Assembly (NCBI GenBank): GCA_021800255.1
Contig: JAJYZC010000011.1
Span: 1-58,928, forward strand
Source: Acidobacteriota bacterium
Lineage (GTDB): Bacteria; Acidobacteriota; Terriglobia; Terriglobales; Acidobacteriaceae
Direction of reading: 5' to 3'
Length of the DNA: 58,928 nucleotides
The notes beneath the pieces are model-generated. The model was not told where the DNA came from and did no database searches. It saw only the letters and a program-made list of their open reading frames with translations. This document shows, in pieces, positions 17,143 through 25,003 of this stretch. Made by a program: the position numbers and the translations under genes. Every line of letters starts with the position of its first letter. Position 1 is the stretch's first letter.

Positions 17143-17219
17143 TGGTAGGCAAGGCGGGTCTCGAACCCGCAACCCCCGGCTTAGAAGGCCGGTGCTCTAT
17201 CCAGTTGAGCTACTCGCCC
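17143..17219 (-). tRNA. tRNA-Arg (anticodon TCT), CCA encoded
   Basis: On the minus strand the 5' acceptor strand GGGCGAG (17219-17213) pairs, with two G-T pairs, with CTTGCCT. The D arm contains AGCTCAACTGGATAGAGC, and the anticodon arm is CCGGC-CTTCTAA-GCCGG with anticodon TCT. The T arm is GCGGG-TTCGAGA-CCCGC. The discriminator is A and CCA is encoded (17145-17143). All four arms fold, so it looks functional. Its 3' end faces the debris at 16250-17142, the usual side for integrative elements. Confidence 0.96.
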
Positions 17220-17268: not shown

Positions 17269-18408
17269 TTAAGCCGCGCCGTTAGCGACGGCCTGAAGGT
17301 AGCGGATTACAGTGGCTTCGGCCCAGTGAATTTCATTGCCGGCGTCGCGGGAAAGAAAGGCGCAATGGCCTCCATGACGGGTTTCGACGAAGGCGATGTG
17401 AGGATTGGCGAGCAGACGGGCGCGGGTATCGGGCATCAAGCGGATGAAGGGATCGTCCTGGGCGCAGAGAACCAGCGTGGGCACGGCGATGCGATTCACC
17501 ACGCGGGCGCTGGCGGCGCGATAGTAATAGTCGTCGGCATCGCGGAAGCCGCAATACGGCGCCACGATCTTCTGGTCGAACTCGCGGATGGAATGGATGG
17601 GACCCATGCCGCGGCTGGTGTAGGTTCCGGGAAACATCTTTGCCTTGCTGCGGAAACGGCGCATAAGCCCGCGCAAGAAATGCCGCTCATAGACGCGGTT
17701 GGATGGTTGGTGGAGGGCGTCGGCGCTGGCGGCGAGATCGATAACCGGACAGACCGTGGCCACCGCGCAGAGCGGGGGCCGGCTGCCCCACTCGCCGGCC
17801 AGCTTGAGCACCAGGTTCCCGCCCATGGAGTAACCCACCAGCGCCACACGCTGCAAGCCGAAACGCGCGGTAAAATGGCGCACCACCGCGCTCACGTCTC
17901 CGGAACGGCCGGAGTGATAGAGTCCGGGCGTCAGCGCGTCAGAGCCGCCGCAGTTGCGCATATTCATGCGAACCACGTTCATCCCGGCCGTCCATGCACG
18001 CATGGCGACGCCGTGAATGTAACGGGAATCCGACGACCCTTCGAGGCCATGAACCAGAATTACGGTGAGCCGCGTTGCTCGCTCTGGCGCCGGTTGCCAA
18101 TGACAGTGACATAGGACGCGGCTGCCGTCGGTGGGGTCCACCTCGACGGTTTCCGCAACCGAGGGCAGACGAAAGGCGGTGCGTGGGAAGAAGTTGCCCA
18201 CAATTGTTTGCAGATGGCCGTTGGAGAGACCGCGGCGGGGCACAAATGCACTGAACCATGGCCATGAGCCGTGGCAGCACTGCGCCGGTTCAGGCTTACC
18301 CAAATCCCCTCCTTCTTCGCTTTTAGGGATCACAGAGACTCCGCCCATGGTCTGGCCTGCGGTGGGCACGGTTCCTTCACGATGGGGCGGCCGGTGGGGA
18401 TCGAACAT
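17269..18408 (-). CDS. YheT-family alpha/beta hydrolase
   Basis: A 379-residue alpha/beta-fold hydrolase. The SNGHLQTIVGNFFPR segment (62-76) is the N-terminal hallmark of the YheT/EMB8 group. The nucleophile elbow is GYSMGG with S194. Other family marks are HGLEGSSDSRY (oxyanion region), an acid in LCAQDDPF, and the catalytic histidine in ETRHGGHCAFL. The substrate is unknown; relatives act on lipids or carboxylic esters. The first about 40 residues are poorly conserved, so translation may start at MGGVSVIPKSE (18348). The gene lies just beyond tRNA-Arg and reads toward it. Confidence 0.87.
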   Translation of the reverse strand: MFDPHRPPHREGTVPTAGQTMGGVSVIPKSEEGGDLGKPEPAQCCHGSWPWFSAFVPRRGLSNGHLQTIVGNFFPRTAFRLPSVAETVEVDPTDGSRVLCHCHWQPAPERATRLTVILVHGLEGSSDSRYIHGVAMRAWTAGMNVVRMNMRNCGGSDALTPGLYHSGRSGDVSAVVRHFTARFGLQRVALVGYSMGGNLVLKLAGEWGSRPPLCAVATVCPVIDLAASADALHQPSNRVYERHFLRGLMRRFRSKAKMFPGTYTSRGMGPIHSIREFDQKIVAPYCGFRDADDYYYRAASARVVNRIAVPTLVLCAQDDPFIRLMPDTRARLLANPHIAFVETRHGGHCAFLSRDAGNEIHWAEATVIRYLQAVANGAA

Positions 18409-18579
18409 CTTAACCTACTTTTTTATCTGTAACTTACAGATGCAATGATACCACGGTTGCCAGAAATACCATGGTTGCAGCCGGCCATTGCACGCTATTG
18501 CACGCCGGGAGCAACCTTGTTGAGATACTGCGACAAGCAGCTAGAAGCAGCTAGGCTGCGCGCACACGCAAAATGCGCC

Positions 18580-18830
18580 ATCCTTCCCACCTTGATCGGC
18601 GCGGCCGCGGCCTATGCAGTTTCGGGCGACGCATCGGCCTCCGCCGATCAGCGTCTGCACGAAGAGGCCGAAGCGCCGGCGCTGGGAGCCGAGAGCAGCC
18701 GCGTCGCAAACGCGAAACCTGGAGAGACAGCTTCTCAGCGCACCCAGCTTAGCCAGGCCCAGCCTTCCGCCAGGAGCGTGGCCGGAATTTCCACGCGCGA
18801 GTAGTTCCACAACCTGATGTGAGCCTCGCT
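18580..18830. repeat. relic of a duplicated ClC / anion-permease 3' junction
   Basis: Bases 18591-18670 match 20721-20800, the end of the ClC gene downstream, at about 75 of 80 positions and encode the same YAVSGDASASADQRLHEEA. Bases 18742-18830 match 21492-21587, the reverse-strand 3' end of the permease gene, with a 6-bp gap and more mismatches. In the relic the two tails are 71 bp apart; in the intact locus they are 691 bp apart. The relic therefore preserves a tail-to-tail junction without the gene at 20871-21443. Confidence 0.75.
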
Positions 18831-18841
18831 CCCAACCTCTC

Positions 18842-18885
18842 TTGAAATAGATCGTATTACGATGTAAATTAGATTGCAATGCGAT
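18842..18885 (+). promoter_or_regulatory. sigma-70-like promoter with MarR-type operator for marR-clc
   Basis: TTGAAA (18842-18847) and TAAATT (18865-18870) are separated by 17 bp. The spacer contains the perfect palindrome ATCGTATTACGAT (18851-18863). A second, inverted copy (ATTGCAATGCGAT, 18873-18885, 10 of 13 positions when reverse-complemented) is centred 22 bp away, two helical turns. A regulator bound here would block RNA polymerase, consistent with autorepression by the MarR protein encoded 47 bp downstream. Confidence 0.65.
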
Positions 18886-18931
18886 ATAAATTCCTCCACC
18901 AAGAACGCGGTGGGTTCTAGAGAGGCGTCCG

Positions 18932-19447
18932 ATGAGGCCGATGAGACCTGGAAATGACCCAGCGATGGTGCGGGACCTGGCCTGGTTCCGCTACAACCTG
19001 CGCCGCTTTCTCGGCTTCAGCGAGCGCGCGGCGCGCGCCTGCGGCGTGACTCCGCAACAGCACCAGCTCATGCTGGGGGTAGCCGGATTTTGCGCCCAGG
19101 GCGAGGCCACGATCTCCGGCCTGGCGGAGTTTCTCCAGGAGCGCAACAACTCCGTGGTGGGCTTGGTGGAGCGCGCGGCGAAGAGCGGGCTGGTGCGCAG
19201 GAAAACGTCCGCCGCTGACCGGCGGCAGGTGATGGTCACGCTCACCCCGCGCGGCCAACGAGTGCTTGCCCGCCTGAGCCGCCTTCATCATGAAGAAGTG
19301 GAGCGCGTGCGGGAGGGTTTTTTGACACGGCCCAGCTTCGGGCGCCGATCCCAGCCGGGCGGCGGCAAGACGGCGCGCCCAGCGCGGCAGGGATCGCGCC
19401 GGAAAGCGCGCGCGGCGCGGCGCCGGGAGGGCAAGACAGAAGCATGA
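18932..19447 (+). CDS. MarR-family transcriptional regulator
   Basis: A 171-residue winged-helix protein. The core QQHQLMLGVAGFCAQGEATISGLAEFL, ERNNSVVGLVERAAKSGLV, then RRQVMVTLTPRGQRVL, is the MarR DNA-binding domain with the DRR wing turn. The C-terminal about 45 residues are very basic and probably disordered (RRSQPGGGKTARPARQGSRR), which is unusual for the family. Its stop overlaps the ClC start (19444), so the two are translationally coupled. It probably represses its own operon through the palindrome at 18851-18863. The ligand is unknown. Confidence 0.88.
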   Translation: MRPMRPGNDPAMVRDLAWFRYNLRRFLGFSERAARACGVTPQQHQLMLGVAGFCAQGEATISGLAEFLQERNNSVVGLVERAAKSGLVRRKTSAADRRQVMVTLTPRGQRVLARLSRLHHEEVERVREGFLTRPSFGRRSQPGGGKTARPARQGSRRKARAARRREGKTEA

Positions 19448-20814
19448 GCAGCGGGAACACACAGCGCACGCAAGCCGCGGGAAGGCCGCGAAGGCGGGCA
19501 AGAGCACGGCGGCTGATGGCCGCGATGCGCACCGATTTGCGAGCCGCCTACGCGCGCGATCTGCGCAAGTGGCTGGTGATTGCGCCCGTGATCGGCGCCG
19601 TCACCGGGCTGGTGGCCACGGGCATCGTGGCCGTCATCCTGCAGGAGTTGTGGCCCATGGTGATGGGCTGGTACTTGCATCATCACTGGGCGATCGTGCC
19701 GGGATTGACGCTGGGTTTTGCCGCGGCCGGACTCATCATGCAGTTTTTTACTCCGGACCCCAACGAGCACTCCACCGAGGAGGTCATCCACGCCTATCAC
19801 GAGCGCGGCGGCAGGATGGATGTGCGCTCCTTTGTGCCCAAGATCGCGGCCGCCATCGCCACGGTGGGCTGCGGCGGCAGCGCCGCGCTGGAAGGCCCCG
19901 GCATCTACGGCGGCGGCGCCATCGGCTCGTGGCTGTGGGCCCATCTGCGCCGCCTGCGCCTAAATGAGCGCGACCGCCGCATCACCCTGATCTGCGGCGC
20001 TGCGGCGGGCATGTCGGCGGTCTTCCGCGCCCCGCTCACCGGCATTGTCTTCGCGTTGGAGATGCCCTACCGCGACGACCTGGCCCACGAGGCGCTGATC
20101 CCCGCGCTGCTGGCCTCGGTGACCTCATTCGCAACGCTCAGCGCCTTCCTCGGCGCGGCGCCGCTGTTTGATTTTGCGTCTTCCACGCACTTTTCGCGGT
20201 CAGATCTTTACTGGAGCGCACTGCTGGGGCTGCTGGCCGGGCTGGCCGCGATGGCCTTTGCCCTCATCTTCCGCCGCGTGCGCGGTTTTTGCATACGCTG
20301 GCGTGCGCCGCATTGGCTCAAGATGGCCGTGGGCGGCTTGCTCACCGGCCTGTGCGGCCTGCTCTTCCTCCGCCTCTACCCCGGAAACCTGGTGCCCCTG
20401 GGTCCCAATTACGAGGCTGTGGAAGCGATTCTAAACTTTCATCACGGCTCTTTGGAGCTTATCGTCTTCGGCATGCTCAAGCTGGCGGCCACGCTGTTTT
20501 CTCTGGGCGCAGGCGGGGTGAGCGCCATGTTTGTGCCGCTGTTCCTCGCCGGGGGCAGCTTCGGAACAGCCTTCGCGCAATCCATCGTCCACAGCGCCAC
20601 GCCGGATTTGTACGCGGCTGTAGGAATGGCCGCATTTATAGCCGCCGGCTACAAGACGCCGCTGGCCGCCGTGGTCTTTGTGGCCGAGGCGACGGGAGGG
20701 CACGCCTTCATTATTCCCGCCTTGATCGGCGCGGCCGTGGCCTATGCGGTTTCGGGCGACGCATCCGCCTCCGCCGATCAACGCCTGCACGAAGAGGCCG
20801 GAACGCGCGAATAG
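19444..20814 (+). CDS. ClC-family chloride channel or H+/anion antiporter
   Basis: A 456-residue membrane protein with about ten helices. The gating glutamate is E150 in GSAALEGPGIYGG. Other family segments are CGAAAGMSAVFRAPLTGIVFALE and LGAGGVSAMFVPLFLAGG (the GxFxP-like region). The GSGIP selectivity motif is not recognisable; the matching place reads HERGGRMDVRSF, as in divergent ClC clades. No C-terminal CBS domains are present. The first about 27 residues are strongly basic. Gene overlap with marR indicates one transcript. The transported anion cannot be inferred with certainty; chloride, fluoride or nitrate are possible. Confidence 0.88.
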   Translation: MSSGNTQRTQAAGRPRRRARARRLMAAMRTDLRAAYARDLRKWLVIAPVIGAVTGLVATGIVAVILQELWPMVMGWYLHHHWAIVPGLTLGFAAAGLIMQFFTPDPNEHSTEEVIHAYHERGGRMDVRSFVPKIAAAIATVGCGGSAALEGPGIYGGGAIGSWLWAHLRRLRLNERDRRITLICGAAAGMSAVFRAPLTGIVFALEMPYRDDLAHEALIPALLASVTSFATLSAFLGAAPLFDFASSTHFSRSDLYWSALLGLLAGLAAMAFALIFRRVRGFCIRWRAPHWLKMAVGGLLTGLCGLLFLRLYPGNLVPLGPNYEAVEAILNFHHGSLELIVFGMLKLAATLFSLGAGGVSAMFVPLFLAGGSFGTAFAQSIVHSATPDLYAAVGMAAFIAAGYKTPLAAVVFVAEATGGHAFIIPALIGAAVAYAVSGDASASADQRLHEEAGTRE

Positions 20815-20870
20815 CACGAATGGATCATCTCCGCAGGCATTTCCAGCGGAGATGATACCCATACATCTGA

Positions 20871-21443
20871 TCAAAATGCCCCGCGACCGGAAAGCTTCTT
20901 CTGCAGCCGAACGAAATTCTTCTCCACGTCCTCATAAAACGGATACAAGTCCTTCTCACTATGCACGATTTCATTCGCTACCGCGTAGGAAAGTGAATTT
21001 GCAAGAAATAGCCTCCAAATCTCCATAAAATCAATCAGCTTCGAATAGTGGTCTCTGGTAGATGGCTCTGCAAGGTACATCCTTTCTTTGAACAGCTTGG
21101 CAATCTCTTCGTAGGTGGGTATTAGCTCTTTCTTCAACTGTTCATTGCCATATTCAATCACTCTCGCATAATCAGCACAATCTTTTTCCGTAGCTGTACG
21201 CACATTTTGTTGCCATTTTTCTTCCGTTATTTCCTGTAAGCGAACTCTGAACCTGCTCTTGACCTTGATTTCTTCGCGTAGGCCAAGAATAGGTGAATAG
21301 AAGTTTTGAAGTTGATCGCGATAGCGCTCGTTTAGACGGTCTCTCCACTGTGAGTACGCGGTCAATACACCGCCTACTACGACGCCCAAGAGGCCTGCAC
21401 CTGCACTTATCAGTGCGTTGTAATTCATAGCTGCATTCATCAC
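20871..21443 (-). CDS. hypothetical single-TM protein, lower GC than neighbours
   Basis: A 190-residue protein that I do not recognise. An N-terminal glycine-rich membrane segment (ALISAGAGLLGVVVGGVLTAY, about 10-30) is followed by a charged, mostly helical cytoplasmic domain (SQWRDRLNERYRDQLQNFYSP and on). This resembles small membrane-anchored helical proteins of unknown function. The base composition is clearly more AT-rich than the genes on either side. The relic at 18580-18830 shows a related junction without this gene, so it is probably a later insertion. No transposase or repeats flank it. Confidence 0.7.
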   Translation of the reverse strand: MMNAAMNYNALISAGAGLLGVVVGGVLTAYSQWRDRLNERYRDQLQNFYSPILGLREEIKVKSRFRVRLQEITEEKWQQNVRTATEKDCADYARVIEYGNEQLKKELIPTYEEIAKLFKERMYLAEPSTRDHYSKLIDFMEIWRLFLANSLSYAVANEIVHSEKDLYPFYEDVEKNFVRLQKKLSGRGAF

Positions 21444-21484
21444 TGTCTCCTTATCACAACAAACCTACCCCTACTCGATATCGA

Positions 21485-22756
21485 TTACCTTACCCAACTC
21501 AGCCATGCCCAGCCGACGGCCAGCGTCAGCAGCGTGACCGGAATGCCCACGCGGGAGTAGTCCCAGAAGCCGATGTGAATTTCGCCGCGTGCGCGCTCGA
21601 CGACGATCAGGTTAGCCACCGAGCCGGTGATGGTGAGGTTGCCGGCCAGGGTGCTGGCCATGGCCAGCACCAGCCAGCCGGTGCGCGGGTCGTGGAACGA
21701 TGGGACGAGCGACTTGAGCACCATCACCGCCGGCACGTTGCTTACGATGTTGGAGACGAGCGCGGTGGCCGCCGTAAAGACGCCGGCGTTTTGGAGGTTG
21801 ACGCGGCCGGCGGCGGCGAACAGGCCGGAGGTCAGGCCCGCAGCTTCGGCGCCGCCCACGATCAAAAACAAGCCGATAAAGAACACCAACAGCCCCCAAT
21901 CCACCTCGTCGTAGACCAGGCGCGGCTCGCGCGTGCGGGTGATGAGCATCAGCGCCGCTCCCACGGCGGCCACCATCGCCGGCGGCGCGCCAGCGAGGAA
22001 CCCGGCCAGCACCAGCGCCATCACGATGGCCGGCTTGCGCATCTGGCGCAGATGGATGCGCGGCGGAGCAGCGGGCGCGCCCGCGCCGGCCGGCGCGGGC
22101 TCATGCGGGCAGAGCAGGCGGATCAGCGCCCAGTCGAGCAGCAGCCCGATCAGCGCCACCGGCCCCAGCCGCCCCAGGAAATAGCGGTAGCTCAGGCCTG
22201 AGACCGAGCCGATGAGCATGTTCTGCGGGTTGCCGGTGATGGTGGCTACGCTGCCGATGTTAGCTGCGGTAGCCACGGCCAGCAGGTAGGGCAGCGGCTT
22301 CAAACCCATGCGCCGCGCCGCCGCCAGCGCAAAGGGAACCATCACCAGGCAGATGATGTCGTTGACGAAGAAAGCCGCCAGAGCGCCGGTGATGAAGATG
22401 GTCACCGGCAGCAGGTTGCGCGGGTTCAGGCGCGACACGATGTGCTCGGTGATCCAGTCGAAGAAGCCCGCCAGGCGCAGGCAACCGACCACCAGCATCA
22501 TGGAGAAGAGCAGCACCAGCGTGCTGAAGTCCACTAGGCGCAGCGCCTGGCTGGCGCCGATCACCCCAAAAGCCACCATCAGCACCGCGCCGATGATCGC
22601 ACCTCCCGGCCGGTCGATCTTCATGCCCGGCAGCTTGCCCAGCGTGAAGACCAAGTAGCTCGCCGCAAAGACAGCGTAGGCCGCAGCCACCTGCCAATCG
22701 GCAAGCGGGTGCGGCGGCAATAGCACAGGCGCGGAGGACAGCAGAGCCGGGACCAT
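21485..22756 (-). CDS. ArsB/SLC13-type anion permease
   Basis: A 423-residue protein with about eleven membrane segments from the ion transporter superfamily that includes ArsB, SLC13 and NhaD-like carriers. Two inverted repeats are suggested by FFVNDIICLVMVPFAL, TAANIGSVATITGNPQNMLIG in the first half and VSNIVSNVPAVMVLKSL, STLAGNLTITGSVANLIVVE in the second. ATG 22756 is chosen because upstream frames overlap the divergent amidohydrolase-like gene. The substrate is uncertain (arsenite, dicarboxylate or sodium/proton exchange). It converges on the ClC gene. A decayed copy of its 3' end lies at 18742-18830. Confidence 0.85.
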   Translation of the reverse strand: MVPALLSSAPVLLPPHPLADWQVAAAYAVFAASYLVFTLGKLPGMKIDRPGGAIIGAVLMVAFGVIGASQALRLVDFSTLVLLFSMMLVVGCLRLAGFFDWITEHIVSRLNPRNLLPVTIFITGALAAFFVNDIICLVMVPFALAAARRMGLKPLPYLLAVATAANIGSVATITGNPQNMLIGSVSGLSYRYFLGRLGPVALIGLLLDWALIRLLCPHEPAPAGAGAPAAPPRIHLRQMRKPAIVMALVLAGFLAGAPPAMVAAVGAALMLITRTREPRLVYDEVDWGLLVFFIGLFLIVGGAEAAGLTSGLFAAAGRVNLQNAGVFTAATALVSNIVSNVPAVMVLKSLVPSFHDPRTGWLVLAMASTLAGNLTITGSVANLIVVERARGEIHIGFWDYSRVGIPVTLLTLAVGWAWLSWVR

Positions 22757-22913
22757 CAAGGCTAGTGTATGCGGGGCTAGGCGGGAATCATCGGCAAAGA
22801 ACAAAAACCTTGCGTTCTTGCTCGCAAATTTTACGGCGGCCGCGTCGCGTACTTGTACCAGGTTGCTATTTCCTTCCAACCCGCTGTGCGACAATTCACA
22901 AAAGACAGTTTGT

Positions 22914-24407
22914 ATGCGATTTTCCTGCCATCGCCTGGTGTGGTTGGGGGGAGTGGTTCTAGCGAGTGCTCTGGTCTCTGCGCAGGCGGGGCGCCCAGCA
23001 GCTCCCACCGCTCCCGGCTCCCCGCCACAAGCTGCGCCGCCACTGGTTCTCACCGGCGGAACGGTGGTGGACGTTACGGACTGGGGCGACTCGGCAAACG
23101 ACCTGCAGAATGCCGTCGTGATTATACGCGGCAACACCATCACCCAGGTGGGCGCGGAGGGAGCCGTCGTTATCCCCAAGGGCGCGCGCATCATCAACTG
23201 TGCAGGAAAATTCATCATCCCGGGGCTGGTGGACGGTTTTGCGGGCATGAGTTCGCAGGGCCAGGCCAATGCCGACCTTTACATGGGCGTGACCACGGTG
23301 GTGGCCCGCCAAGACAGCCAGCGCGGGTTCATCGATATGAGCGCCAACCCCAGCCCCCACCTCTACCTGATCGACTCGGTCGGCACCACCGACAATTGGA
23401 GCCTGCTCGCCAAACAGCCGGAGTGGGCCGCCCGGCTGCGCGAGGGCGCGCAGCCGGTGGAGATCAGCCCGGAAGCTATGGCCTGGCAGATGGCCGCCAG
23501 CGCACGGCTAGGGGCGCGCGTGCTCTTTCTGGGCCCCGCCCTGACGGCGGCCAACGTGCAGTGGATCATCGCCCGCGCCCACCAGATGGGCCTGGTGACC
23601 TATGGCGAGTTCGTGGCTACACCTTACCGGGTGGGCGTGGAGGCGGGCGTGGACGCTCTGGTACACATGGGCCGCTACGAGTTGGGCGTGATCCCCGACG
23701 AGCTGCAAGAGCCGCTGGTGAGCAGTCCCTATGGCCAGCCCGCCAGCGCAGCCTACGACTATGCGCAACGCATTCCGCCCACCGACCCGCACCTGCTGGC
23801 CTACGCTCATTTTCTGGCCGCGCACCATGCCGCGCTGATGCCCACCTTCAGCCTCTACTATCTGCGATTGCCGGGGCATAGCGATCTATGGGACGAGCCG
23901 GCAGCCGCGCTGCTCGATCCCAGTCAAATGTACGACCCCTCCGACCCAAAGACTGGAGAAATGTTCTACCCGCTGCCGTCCTGGGCGCACTGGCTGCCCG
24001 GCATGGCGCAGCGATGGATGGAGAGCACCCAGCAAAAAAAGGCCGACCAGGCGGCGATGCGCTTGTGGCAAATCAACCAGACGATCTTTTCGGCGTTTCC
24101 GCACTACCTGGCCGGTTCGGGCGCCAGCTCGATGGGCACCATGGCGGGCATCTCTTTGCACACCGAACTAGAGCTGCTAGTGCGGCTGGGGCTGTCGCCG
24201 CGCGAGGCGCTGGCTTCGGCCACCAACAATTACGCTCTCCAATTCGGCTGGACCGAGCTGGGTCAAATCGTGCCCGGCCGCCGCGCCGACATTCTGGTGC
24301 TCGACGGCGACCCGACGGCCAATATATGGAACACGCGCCGCATCGCCACGCTGATTCTGAACGGCAACGTGATCGATAGAAACTCGCTGCTGCACGCGAA
24401 CAATTGA
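22914..24407 (+). CDS. secreted amidohydrolase-like protein lacking most metal ligands
   Basis: A 497-residue protein with a signal peptide (MRFSCHRLVWLGGVVLASAL, cleavage near residue 23). The fold of metal-dependent amidohydrolases is clear: the N-terminal beta part GGTVVDVTDWGDS, the region IIPGLVDGFAGM, and the C-terminal LVRLGLSPREALASATNNYA and GQIVPGRRADILVLDGDP. The HxH metal motif expected after PGLVD is replaced by GFAGM. The histidine of the later VAVH strand reads VTYGE, and the aspartate near GTDA reads GSGAS. Only ALVHM keeps a histidine. It is probably non-hydrolytic or binds differently. Its start lies 157 bp from the divergent permease start. Confidence 0.8.
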   Translation: MRFSCHRLVWLGGVVLASALVSAQAGRPAAPTAPGSPPQAAPPLVLTGGTVVDVTDWGDSANDLQNAVVIIRGNTITQVGAEGAVVIPKGARIINCAGKFIIPGLVDGFAGMSSQGQANADLYMGVTTVVARQDSQRGFIDMSANPSPHLYLIDSVGTTDNWSLLAKQPEWAARLREGAQPVEISPEAMAWQMAASARLGARVLFLGPALTAANVQWIIARAHQMGLVTYGEFVATPYRVGVEAGVDALVHMGRYELGVIPDELQEPLVSSPYGQPASAAYDYAQRIPPTDPHLLAYAHFLAAHHAALMPTFSLYYLRLPGHSDLWDEPAAALLDPSQMYDPSDPKTGEMFYPLPSWAHWLPGMAQRWMESTQQKKADQAAMRLWQINQTIFSAFPHYLAGSGASSMGTMAGISLHTELELLVRLGLSPREALASATNNYALQFGWTELGQIVPGRRADILVLDGDPTANIWNTRRIATLILNGNVIDRNSLLHANN

Positions 24408-24484
24408 AGGGCTACGGCGGCGCGTACACTGGTTTCACCGGGCGCGACGGCAGCAGCGCATTCTTTCGCGCCGGCTTCTGCGTT

Positions 24485-25003
24485 ATGACTCCGATACGGG
24501 CAGCGATTCTGACCGTCAGCGATAGGGGCTTCAAGGGCGAACGCGCCGACTTGAGCGGCCCCGCACTGGCCCAATGGCTCGCGGAACGGTCCGTCGAGGT
24601 GGTTTCGAGCAAGCTGGTTCCCGACGCGACGGAGGGCATCTCCGCGCAACTGAAGGAGTGGGCCGACTCCGGGTGCTGCGACCTGATTCTGACCACGGGA
24701 GGAACAGGCGTATCGCCGCGCGACCGGACTCCGGAGGCCACGCGCAGAATTTTGGATTTGGAGATCCCCGGCATAGGAGAAGCCATGCGCGCGGCGAGTT
24801 TCGGCAAGACGCCGTTTGCCGTGCTTTCGCGCGCCGCGGCCGGCGCCCGCGGGCGCACGCTGATTGTGAACTTGCCGGGCAGCCCACAAGGAGCTGTCGA
24901 GAACCTCGCCGTCGTCTGGCCCGCAATTCCTCATGCGGTGAAAAAGCTCCAAGGCGATGCCAGCGACTGCGTTCCGGCTATAGCAAAACCAGAGACGCCG
25001 TAG
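24485..25003 (+). CDS. moaB: MoaB/MogA-type molybdenum cofactor protein
   Basis: A 172-residue protein of the MoaB/Mog family, which adenylates molybdopterin before molybdenum insertion. AAILTVSDRGFKGERADLSGP at the N-terminus and LILTTGGTGVSPRDRTPEATR are diagnostic. LPGSPQGAVENL is the C-terminal signature. The start MTPIRAAILTVSD fits the family; a longer frame overlaps the preceding gene. MoaB and Mog are hard to separate by eye. A molybdopterin oxidoreductase gene follows at 25799 and is a plausible user of the cofactor. Confidence 0.9.
   Translation: MTPIRAAILTVSDRGFKGERADLSGPALAQWLAERSVEVVSSKLVPDATEGISAQLKEWADSGCCDLILTTGGTGVSPRDRTPEATRRILDLEIPGIGEAMRAASFGKTPFAVLSRAAAGARGRTLIVNLPGSPQGAVENLAVVWPAIPHAVKKLQGDASDCVPAIAKPETP

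Follow-up and report, generated by a model that had tools for sequence, protein, structure and literature searches.

The window analyzed here (58,928 nucleotides, the whole stretch of Acidobacteriota DNA under study) encodes a ClC chloride transporter and a CitMHS-type permease that face each other, and, upstream of this pair, a decayed piece of DNA that joins the ends of the same two genes. At the intact locus a third gene (20871-21443) lies between both ends and the relic has no counterpart of it, which raises the question of which arrangement is the older one and how the relic was produced. The original prediction had left open whether the gene was inserted later or lost from the duplicated copy, and had suggested a former tandem duplication as the source of the relic. 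The features of the region are as follows.

17269-18408, minus strand: alpha/beta hydrolase gene, left neighbor of the relic (Pfam Abhydrolase_1, 2.5e-19).
18426-18509, no strand: conserved block upstream of the hydrolase gene, outside the relic (72-83% DNA matches in G061, G100, G099, G063 and G066).
18579-18676, plus strand: ClC 3' end of the relic, decayed (90% to 20709-20806).
18677-18734, no strand: relic spacer between both tails (CTGCACGAA-to-permease-stop gap of 71 bp).
18735-18829, minus strand: CitMHS-type permease 3' end of the relic, decayed (stop codon at 18735-18737; 71/88 aligned bases plus a 6-bp gap).
18851-18885, no strand: two 13-bp near-palindromes, 22 bp apart, likely MarR operator (pattern ATYGYANTRCGAT).
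18932-19447, plus strand: MarR-type regulator gene (HTH_27 above cut-off; MarR_2 and MarR just below theirs).
19444-20814, plus strand: intact ClC chloride transporter gene (Voltage_CLC, 6.7e-75).
20824-20856, no strand: inverted repeat just past the ClC stop (14-nt arms, 93% paired, 5-nt loop).
20871-21443, minus strand: inserted gene, 190 aa, without a family match above cut-off (GC 45%).
21485-22795, minus strand, 5' limit approximate: intact CitMHS-type permease gene (CitMHS, 1.1e-60; ArsB models scored far below their cut-offs).

The relic proper extends over about 18579-18829 and is a decayed leftover of approximately 250 bases of the ClC/permease gene pair. Its ClC end aligned with the intact gene over 98 bp without gaps, and in an 87-bp cut 81 bases were equal, values close to the 94% over 80 bp given at first; a search of the own genome returned this end at 91% over 93 bp (E 1.7e-31). 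The permease tail (18742-18829) aligned with 21492-21585 with a single 6-bp gap, and its core (18742-18822) reached a score of 74 while the maximum in 2000 single-base shuffles was 31, which rules out chance similarity for this tail; in the window outside 18441-24499 the best scores were 25 and 29, one per strand. The relic was also recovered with protein queries, both of ClC (E 1.2e-9) and of the permease (E 1.7e-7). Both tails show the order and orientation of the intact pair, and the permease stop is retained. Taking as landmarks the ClC codons present in both copies (CTGCACGAA) and the permease stop, the predicted spacings were reproduced (71 bp, relic; 691 bp, intact locus); at the intact locus the two stops are 670 bp apart. 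Base-by-base alignment of both junctions together with the protein searches thus confirmed the predicted union of a ClC tail with a reverse-strand permease tail.

Both tails appear to have lost coding constraint. In the ClC tail the original stop codon is gone, so that the frame reads through, and comparison with the intact gene shows changes in 8 of 30 codons, three of which alter the amino acid. The permease end reads HIRLWNYSRVEIPATLL in the relic vs HIGFWDYSRVGIPVTLL in the intact gene, and for four of the residues changed in the relic 12 of 13 relatives retain the original one, the exception being the distant L111, while the terminus is still WLSWVR-stop as in the intact permease. This comparison included 48 ClC and 13 permease rows, in which equal tails were kept once and rows with an identity under 60% or ending more than 12 residues short of the end were left out. 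Based on the loss of the ClC stop, the changes at conserved permease residues and the 6-bp gap, the relic can be regarded as an unconstrained leftover for which we see no function.

It could be argued that this DNA is instead a small repeat or functional element that merely resembles two gene ends, as it is located directly upstream of the likely MarR operator. This is extremely unlikely considering that the own-genome search with relic DNA matched only the relic itself and the intact ClC end, with no copy outside the intact locus, that Rfam gave nothing at gathering score between 17000 and 23000 except a tRNA, and that a second ClC tail upstream of MarR was found at none of the loci compared. 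The same searches led to the rejection of a dispersed repeat and of a known RNA as candidates. The tRNA gene (17146-17219, minus strand) lies past the hydrolase gene. With regard to the near-palindromes, the ATYGYANTRCGAT pattern occurs in the window, on either strand, only at these two sites, and a similar pair precedes MarR(-ClC) in L037, L040, L045, L058, L060 and L062; the pair at 18851-18885 likely represents the operator of the MarR gene.

On its left side the relic is followed by the block at 18426-18509, which contains repeated words (GCAACYRTGGT-like and CGTGCAATRG-like). The five genomes with relatives of this block belong to the same genus, and a relative of the hydrolase gene adjoins the block in three of them (L080, L083 and L089); in the remaining two, no such gene was found (L088) or the contig ends (L092). 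As the hydrolase relative adjoins the block in 3/5 genomes, the block was counted with the hydrolase and not with the relic. An open reading frame on the plus strand (18445-18804) was rejected as a gene since its first part overlaps this block and the remainder corresponds to the relic.

A junction without the gene is also present in other genomes. In L037 (DAIDLI010000047.1) and L038 (JAJZCY010000253.1), taken as contigs of G115 and G112, respectively, ClC and the permease are arranged tail to tail with 16 bp between stops and no gene between them; the gap between the landmarks used above is 49 bp, compared with 71 bp (relic) and 691 bp (intact locus). These two loci are near-identical (end branches 0.025 and 0.02) and count as one lineage, which is what the proposed comparison with related genomes provided in favor of a junction without the gene. 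In a sample of 398 genomes of the family the permease was detected in 64 (E 1e-100) and ClC in 95 (E 1e-120), and comparison of both lists gave 12 genomes that hold the two genes. ClC adjoins the permease in three of these (the window's genome, G112 and G115), in G018 the genes are about 13.6 kb apart, and the remaining eight have them on separate contigs, so that adjacency could be masked by a contig end. G015, G030 and G116, seen in separate searches, also have both genes on different contigs. The closest other genes share 75-76% (best ClC) and 84-85% (best permease), and no close relative of the locus was found.

A scan of genome contigs gave 34 strong loci (L031-L064), of which 27 have MarR upstream of ClC; among the remaining seven, L038 begins inside ClC. 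Two MarR-like genes precede ClC in L036 (1411-2371, divergent) and in L052 (4836-6007, tandem). In 5 of the 12 permease loci looked at (L081, L084, L090, L119 and L120) the permease is arranged tail to tail with tyrA, the gene of a prephenate dehydrogenase, and in 2 of the 12 it is beside ClC. An RNase R-type gene is found on the other side of the permease in L084, and such a gene also precedes MarR-ClC-permease in L037.

The gene at 20871-21443 differs from both neighbors in base composition, with a GC content of 45% vs 66% in ClC and 67% in the permease. Neither Pfam nor NCBIfam yielded a family above cut-off for it. Its identification as a known phage or defence gene was considered and rejected, as PHROGs and PADLOC gave weak matches only. 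The fold predicted from its sequence alone is helical, with low confidence (mean pLDDT 44.9). The family to which it belongs is rare and patchy. Counting the window's genome each time, it was detected in 3 of 99 relatives, in 1 of 396 genomes of a phylum sample (the window's own) and, using a three-row alignment as query, in 9 of 399 genomes of the class, with three of these nine matches (G790, G801 and G525) being weak and partial. In the copies whose neighbors were examined, the relatives stand among unrelated genes: the G019 copy lies between a carbamoyltransferase and an amidohydrolase gene, which we take to be pyrB and pyrC, the G055 copy between the gene of gyrase subunit A and a PH-domain gene, and the G792 copy upstream of a gene that we recognize as UvrA-like. 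Further copies occupy other sites in G702, G614 and G693, the last one having two stops. Copies of the family (L117 7915-8568, L118 9017-9604 and L127-L130) are lone genes of roughly 190-220 aa. At the window's copy no long flanking repeat was found. A plasmid search with the gene gave no match, and in viral contigs two stretches matched a pattern for it and none was confirmed; no donor or moving element was identified in plasmids or viral contigs.

Altogether, this evidence makes a later insertion much likelier, since the junction exists without the gene in L037/L038 and the gene is rare and deviates in GC. We estimate at roughly 85% the probability that the gene at 20871-21443 was inserted into the intact copy and not lost from the relic. 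The opposite order, in which the gene was already present before the duplication and disappeared from the relic, would be in line with the deletion that is likely to have affected the left copy, which is devoid of MarR and most of ClC. Nevertheless, it is very unlikely, as in addition to the gene-free junction of L037 and L038 and the rarity and composition of the gene it needs a deletion that spared both gene ends and left a spacing similar to the one seen in the relatives (71 vs 49 bp). Of the two options left open at the outset, insertion is thus borne out as the likelier one and loss is disfavored. The junction without insert is most likely the older state, for which the relic and one lineage of relatives are the only two independent witnesses.

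The origin of the relic is a less settled issue. If the DNA was duplicated in tandem and the left copy then suffered a deletion, the expected arrangement is the one observed, with the ClC and permease ends of the relic followed by operator, MarR, ClC and permease. In addition, the closest sequence to the ClC tail of the relic is the ClC of the window itself (path of 0.13 vs 0.43 for the next one). The two tails, however, diverge unequally from the intact genes, 6/87 in ClC vs 17/88 in the permease (Fisher p=0.024), a difference not expected from a single duplication if decay had been even. The relic permease tail shares 71/88 bases with the window's permease and 79/95 with that of L101, while the window's gene and L101 share 88/98. 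In the free permease tree the relic was placed beside L072 (the same gene as L101), and joining it to the window's gene was not rejected (AU 0.34; the search was a fast one and the 5000 replicates used are below the number recommended by the program for this test). The tail comparison covered hand-picked loci (18 for ClC and 13 for the permease). In the fast free search the ClC tail tree ended 8.5 log units below the constrained tree; therefore, the tail trees are rough.

Protein trees, built with a simple model and, for ClC, with a quick search, add to this picture. The window's ClC groups with L058, L037 and L038 (SH-aLRT 98), and in L058 no permease is found beside ClC. The window's permease was joined to L084 of G020 (88/92, not starred); the permeases of L037/L038 belong to the same six-row group without any particular pairing to the window's gene, which tempers our confidence in the insertion. 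Since L084 is one of the loci adjacent to tyrA, the ClC/permease neighborhood may not be a simple case of shared inheritance, and we are less sure of a single origin of the pairing.

These observations bear on another scenario, in which two cassettes of different ancestry met: an older MarR-ClC-permease set decayed to the relic and the set of a second lineage recombined alongside. It would account for a relic permease tail that is no nearer to the intact permease than to the genes of other species, for the different nearest kin of the window's ClC and permease in the two trees and for the location of the permease beside tyrA more often than beside ClC in the loci looked at; in L037, besides, no gene of the window was found apart from MarR, ClC and the permease. 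Even so, we consider it unlikely, given that the ClC tail of the relic clearly has the ClC of the window as its closest kin and that lost constraint can account for much of the divergence of the permease tail. The unequal divergence of the tails could be explained by gene conversion at the ClC end, by short pieces having decayed unevenly or, again, by cassettes of different ancestry. A former tandem duplication, as initially suggested, is in our opinion the best origin for the relic and a probable one. It is supported by the way the parts are ordered and by the affinity of the ClC tail, while the permease tail, with its higher divergence and ambiguous tree position, does not clearly support it, and the intact permease groups with a tyrA-adjacent gene.

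Based on this preferred reading, the following model can be proposed. In the ancestor a MarR-ClC unit would have faced the convergent permease, with both stop codons close together. A tandem duplication would then have taken place, with one limit upstream of the MarR operator and the other about 90 bases inside the permease 3' end, and the left copy would have lost MarR and all but approximately the last 30 codons of ClC. What remained of it decayed, as evidenced by the amino-acid changes, the lost ClC stop and the 6-bp gap. Later, a lone low-GC gene would have entered the junction of the right copy, an event that the relic would have escaped, retaining the earlier state. This full sequence of duplication, loss and decay of the left copy, and later insertion is a probable one.

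Decayed tandem duplicates and gains of single genes are well-known kinds of events. As in other decayed duplicates, the fragment stands beside its intact source with order and orientation preserved, has changes at conserved residues and was partially deleted; unlike them, it comprises the ends of two genes in convergent orientation, and for this reason bears on the later insertion. The MarR-ClC portion resembles the pair common in Acidobacteriota, with MarR upstream of ClC, and departs from it in the adjoining permease, present only in the window's genome, G112 and G115 among the 12 two-gene genomes of the family sample. The insert shares with horizontally gained single genes its rarity, patchiness, unrelated neighbors and deviant GC as well as the existence of an empty site, in L037/L038 (one lineage) and in the relic itself, and differs from them in the lack of a long flanking repeat at the window's copy and of a family above the Pfam/NCBIfam cut-offs. 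A more general proposal, that the family consists of lone and probably membrane-anchored genes that move singly into tight junctions, operons included, without a visible mobility gene or flanking repeat, with the relic as an empty site in the same genome, is speculative and rather improbable. A brief literature search gave nothing on this locus, which does not imply a claim of its absence in print.

The locus is a case of ordinary genome evolution, a tidy instance that has been neatly preserved. Its relevance is that a small fragment of a duplication can serve as an internal fossil that orders events, with the junction first and the insertion later. In addition, the inserted gene points to an unnamed and patchy family of single genes that might repay a wider survey.
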